Below, piece by piece: positions 740 through 44,555 of a stretch of DNA of 64,000 nt. The DNA comes from Rhodospirillaceae bacterium. Lineage in GTDB: Bacteria > Pseudomonadota > Alphaproteobacteria > CACIAM-22H2. The position numbers and the translations under genes were made by a program. The DNA lies in contig JALHMR010000008.1 of NCBI GenBank assembly GCA_022843945.1, forward strand, positions 62,001 through 126,000, written 5' to 3'. Position 1 is the stretch's first letter, and each line of letters opens with the position of its first letter. The notes below the pieces were generated by a model. That model was not told where the DNA came from. It did not search any database and saw only the letters and a program-made list of their open reading frames with translations.

Positions 740-2989
740 CTAAGGACAGCTCGTGATCGTGCCGGTGAAGCTGATCGTGCCGGTGTTGCCGCCGCCGTTG
801 GTGCAGATTCCGGCGTTGGCCGTGTTGCCGGTCGAGCCGGCATTGATCGTGGCGTTGGTGAGATTGGCGGCGCTGTTGGTACCGCCGCCGCTCGCGCTCA
901 GCGTGTTGCTGCTCACGGTTGCTGTCGCGTTGTTGACACGCACACCGTCGCTGCTGACCGTGAGCGCGCCGCCGCCGGTGTTCGTGCCGTTGCCCGTGGC
1001 GCTCACGGTGTTGCCGCTGAAGGTCGTCGTGCCGCCGGTGGCGTCGAGGCCCCGGGCGATGACCGTGGTGGCGCCGCTGGTGTCGCTCGAGCCGGTGGCC
1101 GAGAGGGTGAAGCCGTTGCTCGACCCGGTCACCGTCGAGGCGCCCTGCACGAAGAGGCCGCGCGCCGTGGCCTGGACCGTGTCGGCGGCGCCGCCCCCGG
1201 TCCGGGTGGCCGAGGCGGTGGCGGTGAAGGTATTGCCGGTGGCGGTGACGGTGGCGATGTTGGCGCTGATGGCGTTGACGGTGACGCCCATCGCGTTGGC
1301 CGTCGCCGTCGCCGAGCCCGACAGCGTGCCGCTGTTGCCGGTCAGCGTGGCGGTCGAGTTGGCGACGCTGATTCCCGTCGTGGTCGTGCCCGTGCCGCTG
1401 GAGCTGATGTTGATGGTGTTGCCGCTGACCGTCGTATTGGTCGCATTGGTGAGGATGGTGACGCCGGTCATGCTGCTGGCGCTCGTGGCGCTCATGGTGA
1501 TGGTATTGCCGGAAATGGTGGCGCTGGAGCCGGCGCCGTTGACCTGGATGCCCAGGCCGACGCTGGTGGTGTTGCTGGTGGTGATCCGGTTGCCGCTGAT
1601 GGTGACGTTGGTCGAGCCGCCGGTGACGTCGATGCCGTGCGCCGTGCTGCCGCCGGAGGCCGTGGCGTTGATCACGTTGTCGATGATCCGCACGTTGCTG
1701 ACGCCGCTGACCTCGACGCCCTGGGCGTTGTTGCCGCTGCCGTCCGTGTTGCTGATGGTCATGCCCTGGAGCGTGCTGTTGTTGGCCATGACGATGCTGT
1801 AGTTGGCGCCAGAGACATTGGCGGTGATGCTGGCGCCGGTCGAGGTGGTCAGCACGGCGGTGCGGCCGGAGGGGCTGCGCACCGTAACCGAGCCGTTGCC
1901 CATTACGGTCTGGCCGGCGGCCAGGGTGACGATGCCGCCGGCGCCGGCGGTGGTGGTGAAGGCGCCGGAGAGGATCACGGTCGAGTTGGCGCCGGCGTTG
2001 GTGATCGCGGTCGGCAGATTGGCGCCGGTGGTCGTGGCGGTGCTGAGCACGGAAAGCGTGCCGCCGCTGGCGGTCTGGGTCGCCGTCTCCGGCGCGCCGA
2101 AGGCGCCGGAGCGCGAGACCACGTCGATGTCGCGGATCACCGGATCGGTCATGCGCCGCTCCAGCGGCGTCAGGCTGGCGACCTTGCGGCCCTCGCCGAA
2201 GACCTGGAGCGGGATACGTAAGCGCGCCGTGACGAAGCCGGTCTTGCCGCGCACGTCGTCCTGGAACTCGCCGCCCCAGGTCAGGCGCGAGCCCTCCCAC
2301 AGCCAGGGAATCTCGTCGAAGGTCAGCTCGGTGCGCAGGCGCGGGCCCTGCACCGGGGCCACCTGGTCGGCATAGAAGCGGTAGGCGCCGGCGAACAAGC
2401 GCCACTGGGTATTTTCCTCTGCCCGGTACACCGGCACGCGATAGCCTATTTCGCCGTCGAAGCCGGTGAGCGAGCGCTCCTCGCCGCCACGGAAGACCAC
2501 CGTGGTACCTTCGAGGCTGGCGGTGTTGAGGCTGTCGACCTGGTGGCTGCGCCGTCCTTCGGGGATGTAGTAGTTGGCGCGCAGGTCCCAATCGGTGGAC
2601 AGCACCTCGGCGCCCAAGGTCACCTGGTTGAAATAGGAGCCGTAGGTCGCCTTGCGCCGGTCGAAAAAGCCGTAGGCGCCCAGGTTGAACCCCGCATCGA
2701 ACATGTGGCGCACGCCGGCGCCGAAATTGCCTTCGGTGCTGGTGCTGTCGTCCATCCTCGCCTTGATGTTGGCGAAGAGCATCGACTTGCCGTCCTGCAG
2801 CAGAGGCACGAACAGATCGCCCTCGCCCAGGTTGCGCTGGTTGCCGATCTTGCCTTCGAGATCGAGATGCGCGCCCCATTTCGGGGGCTGAGAAGGAGAG
2901 GAGGGCGTGGTTTGAGCAGCAGCGCCGAAAGCGAGGAAAAAGGCCGTCACCCCGGCGAAAGCCGGGGTCCATCGCGCCGCTCGAGACAT
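740..2989 (-). CDS. Inverse autotransporter (intimin-type barrel) with beta-helix passenger, paralog 1
   Basis: A 749-residue outer-membrane adhesin-like protein. Residues 1-26 form a signal peptide ending GAAAQ. About residues 37-265 match the inverse autotransporter beta-domain (for example VRHMFDAGFNLGAYGFFD, YIPEGRR, FRGGEERSL), and a linker carries ERRMTDPVIRDIDVV near 277-291. The remainder is a passenger of repeated SGNT/TISGN strands typical of a right-handed parallel beta-helix, ending ITSCP. In this family the barrel inserts in the outer membrane and the C-terminal passenger is exposed. The ATG at 2989 gives a clean signal peptide; an ATG at 3127 is also in frame and overlaps the preceding gene's stop. 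The first codons lie inside a dispersed palindrome. Ligand unknown. Confidence 0.85.
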   Translation of the reverse strand: MSRAARWTPAFAGVTAFFLAFGAAAQTTPSSPSQPPKWGAHLDLEGKIGNQRNLGEGDLFVPLLQDGKSMLFANIKARMDDSTSTEGNFGAGVRHMFDAGFNLGAYGFFDRRKATYGSYFNQVTLGAEVLSTDWDLRANYYIPEGRRSHQVDSLNTASLEGTTVVFRGGEERSLTGFDGEIGYRVPVYRAEENTQWRLFAGAYRFYADQVAPVQGPRLRTELTFDEIPWLWEGSRLTWGGEFQDDVRGKTGFVTARLRIPLQVFGEGRKVASLTPLERRMTDPVIRDIDVVSRSGAFGAPETATQTASGGTLSVLSTATTTGANLPTAITNAGANSTVILSGAFTTTAGAGGIVTLAAGQTVMGNGSVTVRSPSGRTAVLTTSTGASITANVSGANYSIVMANNSTLQGMTISNTDGSGNNAQGVEVSGVSNVRIIDNVINATASGGSTAHGIDVTGGSTNVTISGNRITTSNTTSVGLGIQVNGAGSSATISGNTITMSATSASSMTGVTILTNATNTTVSGNTINISSSGTGTTTTGISVANSTATLTGNSGTLSGSATATANAMGVTVNAISANIATVTATGNTFTATASATRTGGGAADTVQATARGLFVQGASTVTGSSNGFTLSATGSSDTSGATTVIARGLDATGGTTTFSGNTVSATGNGTNTGGGALTVSSDGVRVNNATATVSSNTLSASGGGTNSAANLTNATINAGSTGNTANAGICTNGGGNTGTISFTGTITSCP

Positions 2990-3033
2990 GGACCCCGGAT
3001 CGCGCCGCGAAGACGCGGCTTGTCCGGGGTGAC
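2946..3033. repeat. Dispersed palindromic repeat (TPAFAGVT family) overlapping a gene start
   Basis: The element runs from GTCACCCCGG to CCGGGGTGAC, with inner arms CCCGGCGAAAGCCGGG and TGGACCCC/GGGGTCCA. It contains the start codon and N-terminal codons of the inverse autotransporter gene on the minus strand. Related copies are at 4736-4854, 5082-5150, 11984-12053 and 39760-39831. Confidence 0.8.
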
Positions 3034-3045
3034 AGGAAGGAAGAG

Positions 3046-3117
3046 GCGCTCTCGCACAACCGCAGACGGTTGTGCTGCCGCGCTTTCCGCGCAGCCGCAA
3101 GGCGTCTGCGCTAGGCG
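3046..3117. repeat. Double-hairpin intergenic repeat, copy 2
   Basis: It has the same layout as 660-738: CACAACCG/CGGTTGTG followed by GCGCAGCCGC with an imperfect partner. It sits directly after the stop of the upstream autotransporter gene, so both copies occupy the same position relative to a paralog. Confidence 0.55.
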
Positions 3118-4893
3118 CTACGGACATGTCGTCCCGTTGGTGAAGGCGATCGAGCCGCTGGCGGGTGCTACGCCTGAGCAGATGGCGGTACCGCTGCGCA
3201 CGTTGTCGATCGATCCGGCATTGATGGTGACGGCGGCGGTGAAATTCACGAGATTGGCCGTTCCGTTGCCTTTTGAGCCGCTCATCGTGTTGCCGGTGAC
3301 GGTGTAGTCCGACCCGACATTGTCCAGGCCCAAAGTGGTCACGACGCCGGAGGTGCTGCCGCCGGTCGCCGTCAGGGTATTGCCGCTGATCAGGGTATTC
3401 GCGTTGGCGCCGCCGGAGCGCAGGGCGATCGCCCCGCCGGTGCCGCTCACCGTGGCGGTGAAGGTGCTGTTGAGGATTTTGATGCCGCCGGCGGCGCCGG
3501 CCATGATGCCGGCGAGGGCGTTGCTGGCGCCGCTGGCGGTGGCGTTGACCGTCAGGCCGATGACCGTGGCGTTGGAGTTCATCTGCAGCACCGTGGCGGC
3601 GGCGCTGCCGTTGATCGTGGCCGTGGTGTTGGTGTTGAGGGTGGCGACGCGGCCGGAGGGGCTGCGCACGGTCAGGCTGCCGGCGCCGACCAGGGTCTGG
3701 CCCGCGGTCATGTTGACCTGGACGGTGCCGGCCTCGAAGGTGCCCGACAGGATGACCGTGCTGTTGGCGCCGGCGGCGGTCACCTCGGAGCCCAGGTTGG
3801 CGCCGCTGGTGGTGCCGCTGGTTATCACCTTGAGGGTGCTGCCGCTCGCCGTCTGGGTCGCGGTTTCCTGCGCGCCGAAGGCGCCGGCCTGGGCGACCAC
3901 GTCGATGTCGCGCACCACCGGATCGGTCATGCGCCGTTCCATCGGCGTCAGGCTGGCCACTTGGCGGCCCGCGCCGAAAACCTGCAGCGGGATCCGCAGC
4001 CGCGCCGAAAGAAAGGCTTGGTTGCCGCGCGGCTGGTCGTTCTGCATCTCGCCGCCGATCGTCAGGCGCGAGCCGTCCCACAGGCCGGGAACCTCGTCGA
4101 CGGTGAATTCGACCCGTCCGCGCGGGCCCTGCACGGCACTGATCAGGTCGCTGTCGGAGGTGAAGCGGTAGCCGCCGGCGAAGAGTCGGAGCTGGCGGTC
4201 GGCGGTGGCCTCGAAGACCGGAACGCGGTAGCCGATTTCGGCATCGAAGCCGCCGAGGGAGCGTTCCTCGCCGCCGCGGAAGTAGACCTGGGTGCCGGTG
4301 ATATACGCCTCGTTGAGGCTATCGACCTGGTGGCTGCGCCGGCCTTCCGGGATATAGGCGTTGGCGCGGAAATCCCAGTTCAGCGACAGCGCCTCGACGC
4401 CCACCGTGATCTGGTTGAAGTAGTTGGCATGCTCGGTTCGGCGCCGGTCGAAGAAGCCGTAGGTGCCGAGGTTCCAGCCCGACTCCAGCATGTGCCGCAC
4501 GCCGAGGCCGTAATTGCCTTCCGAGCTGGCGCTGTCATCCATCCGCGCCTTGACGTTGCCGAACAGCAGCGTCGTGCCGTTCTGCAGCAGCGGCACGAAC
4601 AGGTCGCCCTCGCCCAGGGCGCGGGTGGTGCCGAGCTTGCCTTCAAGATCGAGATGCGCGCCCCATTTGGGCGGCTGAAGCGCGGGAGACGGCGTGGTCT
4701 GGGCGAGCGCGGGCGCTGCCGCCAATAAGCACAATGTCACCCCCGCGAAAGCGGGGGTCCATCGTGCCGCTTGAGATCGCGCCAACCGAGGACGGTTGCG
4801 CGGGATGGACCCCGGATCGCGCCACGCGACGACGCGCGGCTTGTCCAGGATGACAGAACAAGGTGAAAGGCGGTCACCTACAAGTGTACGCAT
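3118..4893 (-). CDS. Inverse autotransporter with beta-helix passenger, paralog 2
   Basis: Paralog of the gene that follows it on the same strand, 591 residues from the ATG at 4893. After the cleavage region ALAQ/TTPSP, the barrel again begins KWGAHLDLEGK and contains VRHMLESGWNLGTYGFFDRR and FRGGEERSL. The linker ERRMTDPVVRDIDVV is conserved and a shorter beta-helix passenger ends GTTCP. The start is uncertain. ATG 4893 has a G-rich run upstream but puts about 48 repeat-encoded residues before the hydrophobic core. An in-frame TTG at 4785 would give a 29-residue signal peptide but lacks a ribosome site. An ATG at 4971 is also open. Tandem duplication is likely. Confidence 0.8.
   Translation of the reverse strand: MRTLVGDRLSPCSVILDKPRVVAWRDPGSIPRNRPRLARSQAARWTPAFAGVTLCLLAAAPALAQTTPSPALQPPKWGAHLDLEGKLGTTRALGEGDLFVPLLQNGTTLLFGNVKARMDDSASSEGNYGLGVRHMLESGWNLGTYGFFDRRRTEHANYFNQITVGVEALSLNWDFRANAYIPEGRRSHQVDSLNEAYITGTQVYFRGGEERSLGGFDAEIGYRVPVFEATADRQLRLFAGGYRFTSDSDLISAVQGPRGRVEFTVDEVPGLWDGSRLTIGGEMQNDQPRGNQAFLSARLRIPLQVFGAGRQVASLTPMERRMTDPVVRDIDVVAQAGAFGAQETATQTASGSTLKVITSGTTSGANLGSEVTAAGANSTVILSGTFEAGTVQVNMTAGQTLVGAGSLTVRSPSGRVATLNTNTTATINGSAAATVLQMNSNATVIGLTVNATASGASNALAGIMAGAAGGIKILNSTFTATVSGTGGAIALRSGGANANTLISGNTLTATGGSTSGVVTTLGLDNVGSDYTVTGNTMSGSKGNGTANLVNFTAAVTINAGSIDNVRSGTAICSGVAPASGSIAFTNGTTCP
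4736..4854. repeat. Dispersed palindromic repeat with nested hairpin
   Basis: A longer relative of 2946-3033. The outer arms are the same, but an extra stem CCAACCG/CGGTTGCG is inserted near 4783-4799. It encodes the N-terminal region of the upstream autotransporter paralog in the minus frame (RWTPAFAGVT). Confidence 0.75.
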
Positions 4894-5182
4894 ATCCCCC
4901 GACCCGCGACGCCCCTGTATCCCTTGCTCATTAACACATTGGTTTACGTGTGCAAGGGGAGCGCGCCTCACCCGGATGCCCCGACTCGCGCGATTCCGGG
5001 CGCGGTGTGGCGGACGGGAGACTCGTCCCGGGGCCGTGCGCTATAGAGGTTGCGCGCCCGGCCGGGCGACAAGAAACAGTCGTCACCCCCGCGCAAGCGG
5101 GGGTCCAGTCTTTTTTGAAGAGTCTGGATGCCCGCTTTCGCGGGCATGACGGATAGCGCAAAGGAAACGCCAGGACCGCTCG
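4894..5182. promoter_or_regulatory. Divergent intergenic region, probable promoters
   Basis: This stretch separates the minus-strand autotransporter operon from plus-strand ETF-QO. It holds an inverted repeat CCCTTGC/GCAAGGG at 4921-4958 enclosing a locally AT-richer segment, which is the best place for a minus-strand promoter (a TTGCAC-like -35 is visible on that strand). The palindromic repeat 5082-5150 follows. No credible gene is seen. Confidence 0.35.
5082..5150. repeat. Dispersed palindromic repeat (69 bp)
   Basis: It consists of a first stem CCCCCGCGCAAGCGGGGG, a central CCAGTCTT...AAGAGTCTGG pairing, and a second stem GCCCGCTTTCGCGGGC. It lies 32 bases upstream of the ETF-QO start. 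Its closest relatives are 11984-12053 and 39760-39831. Confidence 0.8.
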
Positions 5183-6850: not shown

Positions 6851-6895
6851 GGGTGGTCGCGATTAACCACTGGCTCATGTGGTTTGGGGGGCTTC

Positions 6896-7690
6896 ATGGG
6901 CAAGTATGATCGGCTAACCACGTACCTGCTTCGTCGGCCCGACAAGATTTGGCATGCCACCTTCGAAGAGATTGAATCTGTATTACGTAGTCGTTTGCCT
7001 CCGAGTGCGCGCCTATACAAACTTTGGTGGTGGAACGGCGGCCAAGGGCGTCAGTCTTACGGATGGCGAAATGCAGGGTGGCGAGCGGAAGGCGTCGACC
7101 TGAAAAGTGAAGAAGTGACGTTTCGCAAAATTGGCGAACGCGTAAAGGCTGATGCGCCTCTCCTTATTGAACACGGAGGGCCGGTGGGGCCAGCTGTGCC
7201 AGAAGCACCGGTGGGCCAGACAACAGTAGCGGAACTACGGATCGAACAAGACCACGAGCAGCTTTTGGCCTTGGCCAAATCGCTTGCTCAAATCGCCAAA
7301 TTTGAAATCGATCGGATCGGTAGGGAGCGCCCGAACGATCCAGAAACTATTGCCAGTATTGAAAAGCAGCGAGACCTTCTGCTGCTGTTCGCGGTCGGTT
7401 TCGATAAAATCGCGGCCGCCTTAGAGGCTCTTGCAACAGGCCGGCCCACAAAGCCGATGCTCAATTTGGCGACTCGTGCTGTTAAGAGTGTTGGGGAGCA
7501 GATCAACAAGTGGTGGCAAGAGAATGGAAGTGAAGCTGTAGATTGGGGTGCGAGACTTCCGGTCTTTGCTGCGGGTGTCGCGGCGCTTGGTTGGGCAGGC
7601 GCAAATATGACGGTTGCCACAACGGCAGTGGCCGCGATCGTTGGCGGCAGCAAAGTAGTGGCGGTCCTGAAGAAGGGAAAGAGAAGGTAG
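6896..7690 (+). CDS. DUF7662-like N-terminus with C-terminal membrane hairpin
   Basis: 264 residues. Residues 1-82 (GKYDRLTTYL, TFEEIESVL, LPPSAR, WWWNGGQGRQSYGWRNAGWR, VTFRKIG) resemble the DUF7662 domain often found in restriction-like and accessory proteins. A charged helical middle follows. The last 44 residues hold two short hydrophobic segments (VFAAGVAALGWAGA, TAVAAIVGG) and end KKGKRR, as in a membrane hairpin. The start is the ATG at 6896, preceded by GGGGGG at -11 to -5; a TTG 12 bases earlier is less likely. Third-position GC is visibly lower than in neighbours, suggesting transfer. A membrane-acting defence effector is inference only. Confidence 0.65.
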   Translation: MGKYDRLTTYLLRRPDKIWHATFEEIESVLRSRLPPSARLYKLWWWNGGQGRQSYGWRNAGWRAEGVDLKSEEVTFRKIGERVKADAPLLIEHGGPVGPAVPEAPVGQTTVAELRIEQDHEQLLALAKSLAQIAKFEIDRIGRERPNDPETIASIEKQRDLLLLFAVGFDKIAAALEALATGRPTKPMLNLATRAVKSVGEQINKWWQENGSEAVDWGARLPVFAAGVAALGWAGANMTVATTAVAAIVGGSKVVAVLKKGKRR

Positions 7691-7736
7691 CGCCCGCCCT
7701 TTTTCACGCCCGCAGATTTTGGGGACTCACTCCGCC

Positions 7737-8366
7737 ATGACAGTCGCTAACACAAGGGCCGTAAAAGTGGAGCTCGCTGAGGCGGCGCGCCTTGCTGATC
7801 TCTACGGCGTCTCCCTGGACCTTCGCGCCGCAGCTTCATTTTGTCTGCGAGCCATTACCTTTGATGATGAACGCCGAGACTACTCGGACGTGGTTGAAGG
7901 GCTGGTCGCGGCGGCCGTCGTTCGTTACTTCCGTTGTTTCGCTGGCGGCCCGCGTCTGGGCCTGCTTAGGGACGACCTCAAGCATCTAGATGGCAAAGAC
8001 TTGGCGGCGCACGACTATCTGAAGGCGCTTCGGGATAAATTCGTTGCGCACTCTGTTAATCCCTTTGAAGAAACTTTCGTGACGGTGACCGCTCGCGAAT
8101 CAGATGGCGTCCTTTTCCCTATAGAATCTGTTCATCCGGGGCAGAGCCGGGTCATTCTTTCGTCTAACGAAGCCAGGGCGCTCGCTCACCTCATTTCAAA
8201 CGTTTTAAGGCTGGTTGACGAGCGCATCGATGCTGAAGAAAAGCGCCTATTAAAGACAATCCAGGCACTACCGCTGGAAACGATTCACGCAGGCGATCTG
8301 CATACTCCTCGCGTGCTCAAGGATGAGGATGTCTTTAAGACACGGCCACAAACACGACGGCAGTAG
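7737..8366 (+). CDS. HEPN-like hypothetical protein
   Basis: A 209-residue, mostly alpha-helical protein with no signal peptide. The segment LRDKFVAHSVNP contains R99-x5-H105, which fits the Rx4-6H motif of HEPN RNase-type proteins and the 'KFVAH' context seen in AbiU2-like and related families. The helix before it (ALAAHDYLKALRD) and the C-terminal helices (ALAHLISNVLRLVDERIDAEEKR) also fit a helical bundle. It follows the DUF7662-like gene by 46 bases on the same strand and shares its atypical base use. The ATG at 7737 is preferred; TTG 7719 is an alternative. HEPN assignment is by motif only; the same motif occurs in non-nuclease members. Confidence 0.55.
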   Translation: MTVANTRAVKVELAEAARLADLYGVSLDLRAAASFCLRAITFDDERRDYSDVVEGLVAAAVVRYFRCFAGGPRLGLLRDDLKHLDGKDLAAHDYLKALRDKFVAHSVNPFEETFVTVTARESDGVLFPIESVHPGQSRVILSSNEARALAHLISNVLRLVDERIDAEEKRLLKTIQALPLETIHAGDLHTPRVLKDEDVFKTRPQTRRQ

Positions 8367-8488: not shown

Positions 8489-8824
8489 TCACCGCAGCAG
8501 CCGGCGCTGCAGCAGGCTTTGCATGTCGCGGCGGCCATCGAGCACGCAATGGATGAAAACGCGCTGCGCCAGGATACGATAGATGATGCGATACGGCGCG
8601 ACATGGGTCTCGCGGAACTCGCTTACGCCGAGCGCCCGCAACTCCTTCGGGATATTGCCGCGTTCCGGCAGCTGGGCGAGGCTGGCGCCGGCGTCCTCCA
8701 GGTTGCGGAGAACCGCATCGGCACGGGCGACCGACTCCTGGCCGGCAATGGTGCGGTAGATGTCCTGGAGGTCTGCCTTGGCGCCCTCGGTCAAGAGGAC
8801 GCTGTGCCGCCTCCCGCGGCTCAC
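8489..8824 (-). CDS. ParE/RelE-superfamily toxin
   Basis: 111 residues, the usual size for ParE toxins. The fold signature is present: N-terminal helices (LTEGAKADLQDIYRTIA), then the strand pair VAPYRIIYRI and VFIHCVLDG, and the C-terminal RRDMQSLLQRRLLR helix. ParE members poison DNA gyrase, while RelE members cleave mRNA. The RDMQSLLQRRL tail is more ParE-like, but target cannot be settled from sequence. The start codon ATG overlaps the antitoxin stop by four bases, so the two are translationally coupled with antitoxin first. Confidence 0.85.
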   Translation of the reverse strand: MSRGRRHSVLLTEGAKADLQDIYRTIAGQESVARADAVLRNLEDAGASLAQLPERGNIPKELRALGVSEFRETHVAPYRIIYRILAQRVFIHCVLDGRRDMQSLLQRRLLR

Positions 8825-9093
8825 GCCTTAACGCGACGCCGAATGTCGGCGAAGGCAGCGCGGAGCGGCTGAACCTTGCCGCTCTCGACCTCACGCGCGC
8901 CGAGCGCCAGGATCTTGAGCAGCGCCAGCGTCTCCTGGGTCTGCTCGTAGCTGGCGATGTCCTGCAGCACGGCCTTGGCTTCGCCGTTCACCGTCACGAA
9001 GACCGGGCCGGGATCCTCGGCCAGCCCGCGCAGCACCTCCGGCGCCTTGGCCTTGAGATAGCTGATCGATTTCACTTTATTGGAGAGCTTCAT
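8821..9093 (-). CDS. Phd/YefM-family antitoxin
   Basis: 90 residues, upstream partner of the ParE-like toxin. The N-terminal Phd/YefM DNA-binding region is visible as the SISYLKAKAPEVLRGL helices followed by the strand PVFVTVNGEAKAVLQDIASYE. The C-terminal half (ETLALLKILALGAREVESGK) is the helix that normally wraps the toxin. Antitoxins of this type repress their own operon by binding a palindrome near the promoter; a perfect 14-bp palindrome lies 13 bases upstream of the ATG at 9093. No strong ribosome site is visible. Confidence 0.88.
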   Translation of the reverse strand: MKLSNKVKSISYLKAKAPEVLRGLAEDPGPVFVTVNGEAKAVLQDIASYEQTQETLALLKILALGAREVESGKVQPLRAAFADIRRRVKA

Positions 9094-9227: not shown

Positions 9228-9647
9228 TCAAGCCGGCTGCCGTTTCCGATACAGCTTCGCGTGCTCCGGCGTGTACTCGGCCAGCGGCCCGGCCTTGATG
9301 TCGCCCGGTGAGATGAGCGCGGGATCCTTGAGATAGACCTGCGCCCCGCGATGCGCGCCCTCGCCGGGGATGGTCACGGCGATCGTGCGGCGGCGATAGC
9401 CGTCGGGCTCGGCGATGCGCTCCAGCCGGTCCATGCCGGCGAGTGTCTCCTCATCGACCTCGTAGAGCTCGCCGGTGACGTGCAGGCCTTCGCCCGGCCG
9501 GTCGAGGAGCCAGGGCGAGCGGCGCTCGCCCACCAGGTAGAGCGGCCAGAGCTGGTGCGTCACCGCGCGCCCCACGCGCCGCCCGCGATTGATCGCCTGG
9601 TTCGGGAACCCCTGTTTCAGGGTGCCGTAGACGAAGACGAGGGTCAT
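9228..9647 (-). CDS. Gamma-glutamylcyclotransferase/AIG2-like protein
   Basis: 139 residues with the family hallmark FVYGTLKQG at residues 4-12, which binds the gamma-glutamyl group. The loop GELYEVDEETLAGMDRLE supplies the conserved acidic region (catalytic Glu near the DxLE stretch). Such enzymes release 5-oxoproline from gamma-glutamyl amines or peptides, but bacterial YtfP/AIG2 members often have no proven substrate. The start is the ATG at 9647; a TTG directly before it extends the frame by one codon. It is a single gene; the 206 bases upstream to 9856 contain no other gene. Confidence 0.8.
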   Translation of the reverse strand: MTLVFVYGTLKQGFPNQAINRGRRVGRAVTHQLWPLYLVGERRSPWLLDRPGEGLHVTGELYEVDEETLAGMDRLERIAEPDGYRRRTIAVTIPGEGAHRGAQVYLKDPALISPGDIKAGPLAEYTPEHAKLYRKRQPA

Positions 9648-9827
9648 CAAGCCAGAATCTTGGCTTGGGCGGGGATCACGGTCCAGCGTCTTTTGGGCGG
9701 GGGGGTGCCTGGCGCCCCTTCGCCCCGGAGCGCCTGTCGCGGGCCTGGCGCGCCGGGGTTAGGCTTCCGTTCAGCCCTCTTGTCTAAAACCTCCGGGCGC
9801 CTAGATTCTGGCCGCCTGAACACCGAA

Positions 9828-9839: not shown

Positions 9840-9856
9840 CTTTAGGAAAACTGTCG

Positions 9857-10729
9857 ATGCCCAGCGCCCCGCCCGCGAAGACGCCGCCCGCACCCGGTCC
9901 TGGCGAGGCCGCCATCGGCGCCTTGCGCCTGTTCGGGCTGGAGGGCCGTATCGATCTCGGCGCGCAGGTGACCTCCATCCTGGAGGCGGCCCTGGCCGAC
10001 GAGCGCGAGAAGCTCGATTCCTTCGTGCAGATCGACGCGGCGAACTACCTTCTCTACCTCCGCAACCCGGTTGAAGAAGAGGCGCAGTTCGACGCCAACC
10101 TCCTGTCCGAGGATTTGCGCCAGAAGCTCGACGCGGCGCTGACGATCGGCCCCGATCTCCGGGTGCGCACCGTGGTCCTCACCCTTCCGCTGCACACCCT
10201 GACGGCGGCGATCGGCACGCCGGCGACCCTGCTCGGCCTGATCGAGCGGAGCTGGGCGGAAAAGAAGAAGCGCGAGCGCCAGGCGACCGAGGCGCTGCGC
10301 GCGGCCGCCCCCGTGGCGGCCGGGGGCGGAGGGGCGAACCTCTCCGACATCACCTACGGCCGCGACGACATCGACAACGCGCTGGCCGGGCTGACCCCGG
10401 CGGAGCTCGACACGCTGCCCTTCGGGGTCATCAAAATCACTCGCCAGGGCACGATCCTGCAATTCAACAAGAAGGAAGGCCAGCTCACCAACCTCGTGCC
10501 CGGCGATATCATCGGTCGCAATTTCTTCCGTGACATCGCGCCCTGCACCAACCGGCGCGAGTTCCTCGGCCAGTTCGTCGCCGGCGCCAAAAGCGGCAAG
10601 CTCGACGTGAAGTTCAATTACCTGTTTGATTTCCGCATGAAGCCGCGCCGCGTCACGGTGCATCTCAAGAAGTCGTACCATGACGAGCATTACTGGATTC
10701 TGATCGACATGGCCGGAGATTCGGGGTGA
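9857..10729 (+). CDS. Photoactive-yellow-protein-type PAS domain protein with N-terminal unknown domain
   Basis: 290 residues. Residues about 165-287 align without gaps to photoactive yellow protein in the core: Cys230 in DIAPCT equals the chromophore-binding Cys69. Glu207 equals Glu46, Thr211 equals Thr50, Tyr255 equals Tyr94 and Met261 equals Met100, all at identical spacing. Tyr42 is Phe203 and Arg52 is Leu213. Residues 1-160 form a helical domain I do not recognise, ending in a KKKRERQ-rich linker. PYP senses blue light through p-coumaric acid; genes to make that chromophore are not in the window, so photoactivity is inferred. ATG 9857 follows AGGAAA by ten bases. Monocistronic. Confidence 0.8.
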   Translation: MPSAPPAKTPPAPGPGEAAIGALRLFGLEGRIDLGAQVTSILEAALADEREKLDSFVQIDAANYLLYLRNPVEEEAQFDANLLSEDLRQKLDAALTIGPDLRVRTVVLTLPLHTLTAAIGTPATLLGLIERSWAEKKKRERQATEALRAAAPVAAGGGGANLSDITYGRDDIDNALAGLTPAELDTLPFGVIKITRQGTILQFNKKEGQLTNLVPGDIIGRNFFRDIAPCTNRREFLGQFVAGAKSGKLDVKFNYLFDFRMKPRRVTVHLKKSYHDEHYWILIDMAGDSG

Positions 10730-11080: not shown

Positions 11081-11956
11081 TCATGGTTTCGCCGCCAGCC
11101 TCGCTCGTTTGAGTACGAAGAACATGAAGACGCCGGCCGTGCCGAACATGACCAGGCTGTAGATGCCGCCCGGCACCATCATGGTCGTGCTGCCGAGCAG
11201 GGTCACGGAGACGAAGATCGCCAGGGTGCCGTTCTGCAGCCCGCATTCGATGACGATGGCGGTGCGCTGGCGCTCGTTGAGGCCGGTGGCGCCGGCCAGG
11301 ATCCAGGCCCCGGCCATGACCGAGAGGTTGAGGATCAGCATCGCCAGCCCCGACTGGGCGAAGTAGCCGGCGATATTGGCGCGCTCGCTGTAGACCGCGC
11401 CGACTATGATCAGCACGAAGAGCACCGAGGCGACGTGGCGCGCCGGGGTTTCGAGCTTCAGGGCCAGCGCCGGCTGGAAGTGGCGCATGGCCATGCCGGT
11501 CATTACCGGAATATTGGTGACCATGAAGACGCCGACGATGGTCCCGGCGACCGAGATCGTCGGTGCGGCGTCGGTCGCCATGAAATGCTGGATGGCGACG
11601 CTGACGATCACCGGCATGGTGAAGACGCTGACCACGCTGATCACCGCGGTCAGCGACACCGCCAGCGCCGTGTCGCCCTTGGCCAGGTGGGTGAGCAGGT
11701 TGGAGGTGGCGCCGCTCGGGCAGGCGGCGAGGATGACGACGCCGACCTTGAGCGCCGGGTCCATCGGCCACAAGGCCGCCACCAGCCAGCCCAGGGCCGG
11801 CAGCATGACCATCTGGCCGAAGGCGCCGATGACGAAGGCCTTGGGCGCGGTGACCACGCGCTTGAAATCGTCGACCACCAGCGCCAGGCCCAGCGACAGC
11901 ATGATGAAGGCCAGCGACAGCGGCAGAAAGAGCTGCGTGACGACGTTCCCGCTCAT
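11081..11956 (-). CDS. BASS-family (bile acid:sodium symporter-like) transporter
   Basis: 291 residues with about nine to ten hydrophobic segments. Family signatures are the crossover region AACPSGATSNLLTHLAKGD at about residues 77-95 and ECGLQNGTLAIFVS near 237-250, both in the sodium-binding core of ASBT-type proteins. Members import organic anions such as bile acids, pantoate or keto acids with Na+. The substrate here cannot be read from sequence. The start ATG at 11956 is immediately downstream of a palindromic repeat. Its neighbour on the same strand is an EamA transporter 106 bases upstream; the intervening repeat makes co-transcription uncertain. Confidence 0.88.
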   Translation of the reverse strand: MSGNVVTQLFLPLSLAFIMLSLGLALVVDDFKRVVTAPKAFVIGAFGQMVMLPALGWLVAALWPMDPALKVGVVILAACPSGATSNLLTHLAKGDTALAVSLTAVISVVSVFTMPVIVSVAIQHFMATDAAPTISVAGTIVGVFMVTNIPVMTGMAMRHFQPALALKLETPARHVASVLFVLIIVGAVYSERANIAGYFAQSGLAMLILNLSVMAGAWILAGATGLNERQRTAIVIECGLQNGTLAIFVSVTLLGSTTMMVPGGIYSLVMFGTAGVFMFFVLKRARLAAKP

Positions 11957-22013: not shown

Positions 22014-23684
22014 ATGCGCATCCGGGGCAAGATCCTCGTCGGGCTTGCCGTCGTCATCGTCCTGACGATGGCGATGGGAGGATACGCGGTCATCGGGCTG
22101 CGGCAGGCGGCCGCACTGACCGAGCGGCTTTATGACGGGCCGCTGATGGCCAGTGACTTCGCCGGTTCGGCGATGACCAATTACACGCGGCTCGATCTCG
22201 CCGTCGTGCGCGCGCTGGCGCGGATCGGCGCCGGCCTGGAGCCCAACGGCGCCGACATCAAGAAACACGAGGAAGCCATCCTCGACGACCTGGCGATCGT
22301 CGAGGAGCGCGCCGGCGACCCGGAAAGCCTGGCGCGGGTCGAAGCCGTGCGCGAGGCCCTGGGCCAGTGGGTCGGGTTACGCGACCGGCTGTTCGCCGGG
22401 ACGGCCGACGACAGTCTCGCGGCGGCGATGGCCGGTTTGCTGCGCTCGCTCGAAGCCAAGCTGACGATCCTCAACGAGGCCGCCAAGGAGCAGGGCTACA
22501 ACTTCCGCCAGGAGGCCGGGCGCATCGTCGAGACCGTCGTGCTCGCGCTCTCCGCCGTGGCGTTCTTCACCGTGGTTGTCGCGACCATCGTCGGGCTCAT
22601 GCTCGCCCGCAACATCGGCTGGCCGATCAGCGCGATGACCGCGGCCATGAGCCGGCTCGCCGCCGGCGACCTTGCCGTCGACGTTCCCGGCAGCGGGCGG
22701 GCCGACGAGATCGGGGACATGGCCGCTGCCGTCTCGTTCTTCCGCGAGAACGCGATCGAGAACGAGCGGCTGCGAGCCGAGACCGCGAAGCTGACCGCCG
22801 AATCCGAGGCGCGCCGCCAGCGCCGGACGGCCGAAATGGCCGAGACGGTCCGCGACACCGCCGTTGCGGTCGATTCGATCGCCGCGGCGACCGGCAGCGT
22901 CGATGACGCGGCGCAGGGCATGGCGAAGCTTGCCGGCGACGTGCTGGCGGAAAGCCGGGCCGTCGCCGCCGCCTCCGAGCAGGCGCTGATCAACGCGCAG
23001 ACCGTTTCCTCGGCGGCCGAGGAGCTGTCGGCCTCGATCCGCGAGATCTCGACCCAGGTCGTGCGCGCCTCCGGGGTCACCCGGCACGCCGTGTCCAGCG
23101 GCGAGAACGCGCAGGCGACGATCCGCTCGCTCGCCGATCTCGTGGCGCGGATCTCGGAGGTCAGCAAGCTCATCGGCGAGATCGCGGGCCGCACGCACCT
23201 GCTGGCGCTCAACGCCACGATCGAAGCGGCACGCGCCGGCGACGCCGGCCGCGGCTTTGCCGTCGTCGCCTCCGAGGTGAAGGACCTGGCGAGCCAGACC
23301 AGCCGCTCGACCGAGGACATCGACCGGCAGGTGGGCGAGGTCCTCGCCGCGACCCAGGACGCCGTGGCCGCGGTCGCCGAGATCGGCGAGCGCATACGCG
23401 AGGTCGACGGCGTGGCGAGCTCCATCGCGGCGGCGATGGAGCAGCAGGCCTCCGCCACGCAGGAGATCGCCCGCAACGTCGCGCAGACAGCGGAGGCTTC
23501 GCGCCAGGTCTCCTCGAAGATCCAGTTCGTCAGCCGCGAGATCAACGCGGTGAGCACAAGCTCGGCCGAAGTGCGTGTCTCGATCGCCACGGTGACGCAG
23601 GACATCGCGGGTCTGCGCCGCATCTCCGAGCGGCTGCTCAGCACCTCGGATGGCGGCGCCGAGCGCCAGGGTGATGCTCCCTGA
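22014..23684 (+). CDS. Methyl-accepting chemotaxis protein
   Basis: 556 residues. Transmembrane helix 1 is near residues 9-30 and helix 2 near 180-203. They flank a helical periplasmic sensor of the four-helix-bundle type. A HAMP domain follows ([21 protein letters not shown]), then a long coiled-coil signalling domain with the hairpin tip around [38 protein letters not shown]. The chemoreceptor relays ligand state to CheA. It begins 34 bases after the cupredoxin stop, so redox-linked sensing is plausible but unproven. A C-terminal CheR tether pentapeptide is not obvious. Confidence 0.93.
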
Positions 23685-30512: not shown

Positions 30513-31598
30513 ATGACAGGCGTGCGGCAACGGGTCCGTTATTGTGCGTCTGCCGCCGATGGCGTTCGGATCGGCTACGCCCAGCGGGGCAATGGCGCGG
30601 CCATCGTCAAGTCGGGCAATTCGCTCAGCCATCTCGACTTCGAGAAGGACAGCTCGGTCTGGCGGCATTACGCGACCGCGCTGATGCGCGATTACAGCTA
30701 CGTCAACTACGATCCGCGGGGATGCGGCCTGTCGGACCGCCATCCCGACGACATGTCCTTCGCGGCCTCGCTCAGCGATCTTGAGGCCGTTGTCGACGCG
30801 GCGAACCTCCAGCAGTTCTCGCTCCTGGCCTTGTGCGGCGGCTCCGCCGTGGCGCTGGCCTACGCCGCGAAGCATCCGGATCGCGTCACGCATCTCGTGA
30901 TTCATGGCGGTTACGCGCTCGGGCCGATGCGTCGGCCCGGAGCGTCGCATGTCCGCGAGGTCTACGAGAGCATCGCCACACTCGTCGAGTTCGGCTGGGA
31001 GGCGACCAGCCCGGCGATCCGGCAGATGATTGCCCTGCAATTTCTTCCCGATGCGACGCCCGAGCACTATCGGGCGTTTCATGAATTCGCCAAGGCATCC
31101 CTGTCTTCGGACTCCTTTGCCCAGCGCTTCCGCGTGCTCTACGACCTCGATGTCGCCCCGTTCGCCAGGCGGATTGCCTGCCCGACGCTGGTTACGCATT
31201 CGACGCACGATCCCTGGGTCCCCATCGAGGAGGGCCAGTATCTCGCCAGCCTGATTCCGCAGGCCCAGTTCGTACCGATCCGCAGCCAGAACCACCTGTT
31301 GCTGGAGCATGAGCCGGGCTGGCGCCATTGGCTCGACGAGGTCCGCTCGTTCATTCCGGCGAACGCGGCGAGCTCACCGGTGTTCAATGAGCTGACTCCG
31401 CGCGAGCGCGAGCTCGTCAACCTGATGGCGCGGGGCTTGAGCAACATCGAGATCGCCGCCACGCTTGAGCTCAGCACCAAGACGGTCAAGAACTACATCA
31501 ACAGCGTCTTTGCCAAGCTCGATGTGGTCAGCCGCGCTCAGCTCATCGTGCGCGCCCGCGACGCCGGCTTCGGCAGCCCCCACGCCCTGGCGAGCTAG
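30513..31598 (+). CDS. Alpha/beta hydrolase fused to LuxR-type DNA-binding domain
   Basis: 361 residues. Residues 1-285 form an alpha/beta-hydrolase fold (NYDPRGCGLSDR, nucleophile elbow ALCGGSAVALAYA, acid loop THDPWVPIEEGQ, His in RSQNHLLLEH). Residues about 290-355 are a LuxR/GerE helix-turn-helix (LTPRERELVNLMARGLSNIEIAATL, STKTVKNYINSVFAKL). The elbow residue is Cys108 where Ser is usual. Known relatives are regulators in which the hydrolase domain is thought to bind or process a small ligand. Preceded by an unusually AT-rich 144-base leader that holds the inverted repeat at 30494-30508. Confidence 0.9.
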   Translation: MTGVRQRVRYCASAADGVRIGYAQRGNGAAIVKSGNSLSHLDFEKDSSVWRHYATALMRDYSYVNYDPRGCGLSDRHPDDMSFAASLSDLEAVVDAANLQQFSLLALCGGSAVALAYAAKHPDRVTHLVIHGGYALGPMRRPGASHVREVYESIATLVEFGWEATSPAIRQMIALQFLPDATPEHYRAFHEFAKASLSSDSFAQRFRVLYDLDVAPFARRIACPTLVTHSTHDPWVPIEEGQYLASLIPQAQFVPIRSQNHLLLEHEPGWRHWLDEVRSFIPANAASSPVFNELTPRERELVNLMARGLSNIEIAATLELSTKTVKNYINSVFAKLDVVSRAQLIVRARDAGFGSPHALAS

Positions 31599-42633: not shown

Positions 42634-44307
42634 CTAGGCGGCCCGGATATCGGCGAGGAACTGGCTGACGTCGGCCCGCAGCCTCTCGCCCTGCTTCGAC
42701 AGCTCGCTCGCCGCACCGAGGACCTGGGTCGACGCCGCGCCTGTCTCGGTGGCGGCCTGGGTGACGCCGGCGATATTCGACGACACCTCGTCTGTGCCCT
42801 TCGAGGCCTGCTGAACGTTGCGCGCGATCTCCTGAGTCGCGGCACCCTGTTCCTCGACGGCCGAGGCGATGGTGGTGGCGATCTCGTTGATCCGGCTGAT
42901 CGTGCCGCTGATGCCTTCGATGGACTTGACCGAATCGCTGGTCGCACTCTGGATCGCCTTGACCTGGGCGGCGATGTCCTCGGTGGCCTTGGCGGTCTGG
43001 GTGGCGAGCGACTTCACCTCGGAGGCGACCACCGCGAAACCCTTGCCGGCTTCGCCCGCACGGGCGGCTTCAATGGTGGCATTGAGCGCCAAGAGGTTGG
43101 TCTGGCCGGCAATGTCGTTGATCAGCTTGACCACGTCACCGATCTTCTGCGCCGCCTCGGCCAGCGCCTGGACCTGCGCATTGGTGCGGCCTGCGTCGCC
43201 GACTGCCTGGCCGGCAATCTTGGCGGATTCGGCGACCTGACGGCTGATCTCGGCGATCGACGAAGATAGCTCCTCGGCGGCCGCGGCGACGGTCTGCACG
43301 TTGGTGGAGGCCTGCTCCGAGGCCGCGGCCACGGTGGTCGACTGCCGGCTGGTCTCCTCCGCGGTCGCCGACATGGACTGTGCGGTGGTCTGCAGCTCGG
43401 TCGAGGCGGAGGCCAGCGTTTCGAGGGCGCCCGAGACCGACTGGTCGAAGCGCTTGAGATAGCCGTCGATCTTGCGCTGACGCTCCTCCTTCTTGGCCTG
43501 CTCGGCCGCCTGCTCGGCCGAAAGCCGGTCGGCCTTGATCATGTTCTCCTTGAAGACCTGGACCGCGCCGGCCATGTCGCCGATCTCGTCGGCGCGTCCC
43601 ACGCCCGGGATATCCGCCTGCTTGTCGCCGCCGGCTAGCCGCATCATTGCGGCGGTCATGCCGGCGATCGGACCCGTGATCCCGCGCAGCGTCACCATGA
43701 CGCCCATGCCGACGACGGCGATGGCGAACAGGATGAGGACGATCTGGGCCCACTTGCTGGTGGCGAAGACGCCCTGGGCCCGGCCGAAGTCCTCGGCCGC
43801 CACGCGCAGCTGCAGGTCGACGAGGTCCGAGATCTTGCCGGTCACCGGATCGATGCCGTCGTAGAGCTCCTTGACGACGTAGGTGTCGAGCGCGGCCTGG
43901 TCCTTCGCGGCGATCACGCCGCGCAGCTTGACCACCGACCGGTCGGCGACCGCCATCGTGGTGCGGACCTGTTCCGCCAGGATCTTCTCCTCCGGCGTGA
44001 GATAGGTGGAGGTATAGGCCTTCCACTGCTCCGCGATGCCGGCGGCCGCGGTGTCGATAGCCTTCAGCCCCTCGGGCCAGGCCTGGTTGCCGTTGCGGAC
44101 CTTGTGCGCGGTGTCGACGATGTTCACGGCGTAGAGGTCGGAGATCGTCTTGAGCTGCTTGAGCGGGATGACCCGGTCGTCATGGACGCTGCGCAGGGCG
44201 TCGTTGTTGAGGCCGAGCGCGATCCAGCCGACGGTCGCCGTGGTGGCGATGACCGCGGCCAGGGCAACGAGAACGCCGAGTACTTTTAGCTTGATGGTGA
44301 GCTTCAT
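42634..44307 (-). CDS. Methyl-accepting chemotaxis protein with 4HB-type sensor
   Basis: 557 residues. Transmembrane helix 1 is at about 9-30 ([21 protein letters not shown]) and helix 2 near 190-212. Between them is a four-helix-bundle MCP sensor ([21 protein letters not shown]). HAMP ([20 protein letters not shown]) and the signalling hairpin ([38 protein letters not shown]) follow. It is a second chemoreceptor beside that at 22014 but with a different sensor. Its place between two ABC substrate-binding genes may mean taxis toward the transported solute. AAGAGGAAACC precedes the ATG at 44307. Confidence 0.93.
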
Positions 44308-44555
44308 TGGTTTCCTCTTGCCGGAGATTAACGGCCCGGCGTGTGCCTGTTTCGTGGGCAACTGTGGGCCACGGGTGTAAACCGCCGGTAAAGGAGCTTG
44401 GTTAACGGGACCTTAAGACGCTGCCGCTCCGCCCCGCCCCGCCCCCCTAAGACGTTGTAAGAAATGAATTCCTGCTGCAAGCCGGCGGCGGCCGGCTGCA
44501 CAAAAGTCAATTCTGTAATTCGATATCGCGAGGCAGCGGCGCGGTCGGTGGTGCG
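44308..44555. other. Intergenic region between chemoreceptor and ABC operon
   Basis: It contains a GC-rich stem AGCCGGC/GCCGGCT around 44478-44495 near the end of the ABC operon, a possible terminator. A pyrimidine/purine-biased CCGCCCCGCCCCGCCCCCC run lies at 44427-44447. The chemoreceptor promoter should lie near 44308-44400. No gene is seen. Confidence 0.4.

Follow-up and report, generated by a model that had tools for sequence, protein, structure and literature searches.

The locus

The window, by which we mean the whole 64,000-nucleotide stretch of DNA from a Rhodospirillaceae bacterium that was analysed, contains a gene in which a photoactive yellow protein (PYP) domain is encoded behind another, N-terminal domain. 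This gene and its two neighbours are the following.

9857..10729, plus strand: fusion gene, 290 aa, predicted degenerate GGDEF-like domain, signalling helix and PYP domain (open reading frame, domain searches)
9228..9650, minus strand: divergent neighbour of the gamma-glutamyl cyclotransferase (GGACT) family (Pfam PF06094)
11081..11956, minus strand: convergent neighbour of the SBF sodium/bile-acid symporter family (Pfam PF01758)

The fusion gene begins with ATG, 7 nt upstream of which lies a sequence resembling a ribosome-binding site (AGGAAA, 9844-9849). Its frame extends over 313 aa from stop to stop, has no internal stops, and the surrounding 166-kb contig is normal and uninterrupted on both sides. 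An earlier note on this DNA had proposed a PYP domain and an additional N-terminal domain here, and this was borne out: the gene is real, and its C-terminal PYP is a genuine one according to TIGR02373 and PDB matches. The divergent GGACT gene and the convergent SBF gene leave the fusion gene alone, without an operon, and a partner of its product must thus be encoded elsewhere. As far as can be seen, there is no functional link between the GGACT-family neighbour and the fusion gene, and no chromophore genes of the pyp-pCL-TAL operon type adjoin the latter. No phytochrome, histidine kinase or GGDEF/EAL output domain was detected by Pfam in the 290-aa protein.

The PYP domain and its predicted chromophore

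The C-terminal part of the protein contains the following features.

10346..10705, plus strand: PYP domain, residues 164-283 (TIGR02373, PDB PYP chains, alignment)
10463..10465, plus strand: Phe203, equivalent of Tyr42 (alignment)
10475..10477, plus strand: Glu207, equivalent of Glu46, the hydrogen bond/proton donor position (alignment)
10544..10546, plus strand: Cys230 (TGC codon), equivalent of Cys69 and predicted p-coumaroyl attachment site (alignment)

The TIGR02373 model matched the fusion protein with an E-value of 1.2e-41 and 141.6 bits in hmmscan, just under the cut-off of 143.05 bits, and with 144 bits, above this cut-off, in the genome search; this model has been described as overly strict (PMC9664959). 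PYP chains of the PDB matched residues 164-283 at E 7e-35. Every residue position quoted in the earlier note proved right in the alignment: in Halorhodospira halophila numbering C69 corresponds to C230, E46 to E207, T50 to T211, Y94 to Y255 and M100 to M261, while Y42 is replaced by F203 and R52 by L213 (the H. halophila sequence behind this numbering agrees with the PDB alignments). Four further changes, absent from that note, are D34 to T195, G51 to N212, Y98 to F259 and V66 to I227. Cys230, whose lack in close homologues had been named as a reason for rejecting the photoreceptor assignment, is conserved in them. Judged from these residues, the PYP domain would have everything needed for binding of a p-coumaroyl group via Cys230 and for a PYP-type photocycle.

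The closest PYPs are 41-48% identical to this domain. Among 12 other PYP domains the nearest are single-domain alphaproteobacterial ones (L013, L014 and L003, 42-48% identity), and PYPs of Caballeronia plasmids reach 48%. From its closest relatives the domain differs at Phe42, Leu52, Asn51, Thr34 and Phe98. Phe42 occurs naturally in 8.9% of 984 PYPs and Leu52 is the consensus of the PYP family (PMC12826048), so that neither is remarkable alone. The expectation that the Y42F change tunes absorption is in line with the H. halophila Y42F mutant, described as perturbed or red-shifted (PMC12826048, PMC9664959), and has to be read together with the natural occurrence of Phe42 in about 9% of PYPs. 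One of the genomes sampled (G282) bears two PYPs (L013, L020), one canonical and the other with Ser50, Gln47 and Trp62.

A separate problem is the supply of the chromophore. No lyase of PF00221 (TAL, PAL, HAL) was found in the 96.7%-complete host genome, so the source of p-coumarate is not evident; a congener and most of the family members tested have such a gene. One reading of this is that PYP has no photoreceptor role here: lacking p-coumarate, it could act on the GGDEF-like domain as a PAS sensor in apo form or with another ligand, or else as a module for dimerisation. Phe42 and Asn51, both unlike the closest canonical relatives, would fit such a role, and Methylobacterium PYP paralogues with lost light sensing have been proposed (PMC9664959). 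We consider this explanation rather unlikely, though the strongest of the alternatives, since Cys230, Glu207 and Thr211 are all kept and since PF00221 is likewise absent from 5 of the 12 other PYP-bearing genomes, including G185, which encodes a canonical Tyr42/Glu46/Cys69 PYP and is 99% complete. The search for a tyrosine ammonia-lyase suggested in the earlier note thus came out negative and, given those five genomes, does not refute PYP function. According to PMC12826048, TAL is present in just 5% of pyp operons, and the same paper mentions a proposed uptake of p-coumarate. The 20 matches to the acyl-CoA-ligase (AMP-binding) family in the host genome, none of them near the fusion gene, could include a p-coumaroyl-CoA ligase, although among the ten of these 20 that were scanned NCBIfam singled out none.

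The N-terminal domain

Two features precede the PYP domain, and four paralogues of the first are present in the same genome (G000).

9893..10222, plus strand: predicted degenerate GGDEF-like domain, residues 13-122 (hhalign, HMM built without the query)
10220..10306, plus strand: charged helix, residues 122-150, LIERSWAEKKKRERQATEAL (alignments with relatives)
C32:29416-29727, C32:2569-2874, C19:29432-29758 and C55:285-686: paralogues L051-L054

Pfam gave no family for the N-terminal 158 residues even at E 10. The description of this part as unrecognised therefore stands as far as curated families are concerned; the profile route, on the other hand, leads to a degenerate GGDEF-like domain. A single-sequence search of related genomes returned one kind of match besides PYP: residues 13-148 were aligned by phmmer with proteins of the order PAS-PAS-[GGDEF-like]-[EAL-like] (E 5e-6 to 1.7e-5). 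In two of these (L005 and L008, 645-667 aa), two PAS domains are followed by the part that matches residues 13-148 and then by an EAL-like region, the latter read by eye and by analogy with members that match Pfam EAL. Two weak matches of the single-sequence search (L010, L011) look like wrong-frame or chance open reading frames and were dropped; at another locus (L009) a true member of the GGDEF-like family lies on the strand opposite to the weak first match.

The relatives (L051-L054, L022-L050) carry GGDEF-like domains that are degenerate, mostly under Pfam cut-offs and in most cases with an EAL-like region behind them; among 34 full-length members scanned, 8 match PF00990 (GGDEF) and 7 match EAL. 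In their consensus, AGxLQLIGLxxIKExLGxxWxxxAxRAxxIAExxIxxRLxxxDVxxRxxDxxYLVLFAxLxExEAxxKAxxIAxEIxxxL, the elements are arranged, as read from the sequence, as in a GGDEF domain. Comparison of the family with this genome's own true GGDEF domains gave an hhalign probability of 96, and of the PDB structures that best matched the family profile built without the query, nearly every one was a diguanylate cyclase or FimX (3ezu at the top, E 5e-4). With four sequences in the profile (A1) there was no PDB match; larger profiles gave matches.

The link between the fusion protein and this family was examined with the query left out. An HMM built in this way scored the N-terminus at 25-27 bits, with 7 bits as the best of 2000 shuffles, with the reservation that the relatives had been harvested with a four-row profile in which the query was one row; when the closest subfamily was also omitted, the score was still 27.0 bits. 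In hhalign, the 33-member family without the query matched the N-terminal region with a probability of 94.9, and the negative controls gave 0.9 (unrelated alignment) and 0.3 (PYP part). Direct comparison of the N-terminus with true GGDEF domains gave nothing (probability 0.1), and the assignment is thus transitive, through the intermediate family. Single-sequence AlphaFold produced a model too poor to judge the fold (pLDDT 43.6 for the whole protein and 39.6 for residues 12-150).

One might argue that the N-terminal domain is lineage-specific and unrelated to GGDEF, its resemblance to the family being due to chance or convergence. The failure of the direct comparison, an identity to family members of only 14-32% and a gap of about 7 residues, relative to the relatives, after the conserved LG in the core helix region speak for such an explanation. 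It is nevertheless improbable in our opinion, because the query-free profile is significant against shuffles, the similarity is colinear over approximately 135 residues, including the downstream helix, and the negative controls are clean. The N-terminal 150 or so residues, which are homologous to the family, thus appear to be a divergent, catalytically dead GGDEF-like domain with a signalling helix.

At the position of the GGDEF signature the aligned protein has D-A-A-N-Y (DAANY), and the GG(D/E)EF active-site motif is absent. On known chemistry, a domain of such sequence cannot be a diguanylate cyclase. The position of the RxxD motif of the I-site is occupied by EKLD, with an arginine one place too far upstream, so RxxD is missing as well, and binding of c-di-GMP at an I-site is probably not a property of this domain.

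With the four-sequence profile, the GGDEF-like domain was detected in 71 of the 385 class genomes sampled and in four further copies in the same genome; counting good class genomes, the family is present in 65 of 315. This large alphaproteobacterial family looks uncharacterised. The domain is shared by GGDEF-like/EAL-like proteins with two PAS domains (L005, L022, L024) and by others without PAS (L028, L035, L050 and more). The charged helix of the fusion protein is common to the PAS-bearing group, where it aligns with an IERxLxxERxR helix that leads into the EAL-like domain. The GGDEF-like/EAL-like proteins continue into an EAL-like domain and carry no PYP, whereas in the fusion protein PYP stands in that place.

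Distribution of the fusion

A match covering both parts of the protein was found in none of 60 genomes of relatives, 385 of the class, 398 of the phylum and 22 other family members. Contig scans of genomes, performed with the whole protein and with its PYP part, revealed no relative. In a plasmid collection PYP domains are present, for example on the Niveispirillum plasmid NZ_CP025613.1, without the fusion, and a phage collection gave no match. One candidate (L014), in which the match reached upstream of PYP (query residues 80-284), was rejected, as the match crosses two stops and L014 is an ordinary single-domain PYP.

Since the fusion occurs in one genome only, conservation cannot vouch for its function, and the gene might be seen as the product of a chance event, perhaps without function, in which PYP was recently joined to a truncated degenerate GGDEF-EAL gene, or as an assembly artefact; this is highly improbable in view of the intact frame of 290 codons with its RBS-like start and unbroken flanks, the conserved PYP pocket, and an identity of at most 48% to any other PYP found, which, together with that pocket, points to long divergence under constraint.

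Relation to known proteins and possible function

The domain architecture described here is well supported. With single-domain PYPs (H. halophila and relatives; TIGR02373) the C-terminal domain shares length, fold signature, Cys69, Glu46, Thr50, Tyr94 and Met100, and it is approximately 42% identical to the H. halophila protein. It differs from them by Phe42, Leu52, Asn51 and Thr34, by its fusion behind another domain, and by the lack of an adjoining TAL or CoA ligase gene. Published fusions of PYP include those with phytochrome-histidine kinase, phytochrome-GGDEF/EAL, histidine kinase, V4R, REC and MCP (PMC12826048, PMC9664959). A C-terminal position of PYP, as in our case, is known from MCP-PYP, PAS-PAS-HK-PYP and REC-PYP, the last of which is also devoid of catalytic output (PMC12826048). 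MCP-PYP proteins were present among the loci found (L004, L017), and a PAS-histidine kinase with a C-terminal PYP (L021:1492-3297, minus strand, in G367) represents the PAS-HK-PYP type known from the literature.

It had been suggested that a PYP protein without a kinase or cyclase output would be a new kind of light-sensor architecture. The pairing of domains is new; PYP proteins without obvious catalytic output, REC-PYP and PYP-V4R, have already been described (PMC12826048), and the fusion is a PYP multidomain protein with a new pairing, not a new kind of sensor. Its partner, a degenerate GGDEF-like domain, is absent from those named in the text of PMC12826048. That survey relied on curated domain models; because such models are blind to the N-terminal domain found here, its unlisted multidomain cases may hold similar proteins.

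Ppd of Thermochromatium tepidum (PYP-phytochrome-GGDEF-EAL) and Ppr (PYP-phytochrome-histidine kinase) also join PYP to signalling domains, and Ppd, like our protein, is tied to GGDEF/EAL. In both, however, PYP is N-terminal and accompanied by a phytochrome and by an output domain that is intact; our protein has none of these features. GGDEF-type domains without the catalytic motif are likewise found in CdgI and CsrD of Escherichia coli, FimX and LapD. The known degenerate GGDEF(-EAL) proteins of this kind work through binding of c-di-GMP or of other proteins as partners. The fusion protein differs from them in lacking the RxxD I-site, in carrying PYP instead of the EAL-like part, and in a sequence too distant for direct recognition.

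With even confidence for and against, we propose as the product of this gene a soluble signalling protein of two domains, without enzymatic activity, in which PYP would be the light input and the output would be a protein-protein contact, not catalysis; a light-responsive, non-catalytic adaptor in c-di-GMP signalling is the reading with the best support. PYP occupies the EAL-like position behind the GGDEF-like domain and the charged helix. Its conversion by blue light, provided that the chromophore is bound, would probably alter this helix and the surface with which the GGDEF-like domain pairs, and contacts with active GGDEF/EAL proteins of the genome or with the degenerate paralogues might be switched in this way. 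A more specific and tentative proposal, to which we give less credence, is that of a non-catalytic blue-light adaptor which steers c-di-GMP enzymes by direct contact, PYP having replaced an EAL-like domain that once followed the dead GGDEF-like domain and its signalling helix. The host genome holds active c-di-GMP enzymes elsewhere (6 GGDEF and 3 EAL over cut-off). Specific contacts of degenerate GGDEF domains with other GGDEF/EAL proteins were demonstrated for E. coli in a two-hybrid interactome (PMC5635695).

The signal output of PYP is the main open question on this model photoreceptor, and in a soluble fusion of this small size, with PYP at the EAL-like place, output via an interaction surface of the GGDEF type could be put to the test in compact form. 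Should the adaptor proposal be true, it would be the first case known to us of a PYP linked to c-di-GMP signalling with neither phytochrome nor catalytic domain in its own polypeptide. A domain without a Pfam match is at the same time tied to a widespread alphaproteobacterial family.

Other genes of the window

Two MCP chemoreceptor genes (22014-23684, plus strand; 42634-44361, minus strand) lie less than 35 kb from the PYP fusion, with no sign of linkage. Two adjoining genes at 740-4971 (minus strand) encode inverse-autotransporter beta-domains (PF11924) with repetitive Ser/Thr/Asn-rich C-terminal parts. A DUF7662 domain forms the N-terminus of the protein encoded at 6884-7690 (plus strand), whose C-terminal part has no domain assignment, next to the gene of a likewise unassigned 215-aa protein (7719-8366), and a ParE-type toxin and a Phd/YefM-type antitoxin are encoded at 8489-9093 (minus strand) with an overlap of a few bases. 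At 30513-31598 (plus strand) a LuxR-type DNA-binding domain is fused to an alpha/beta-hydrolase.
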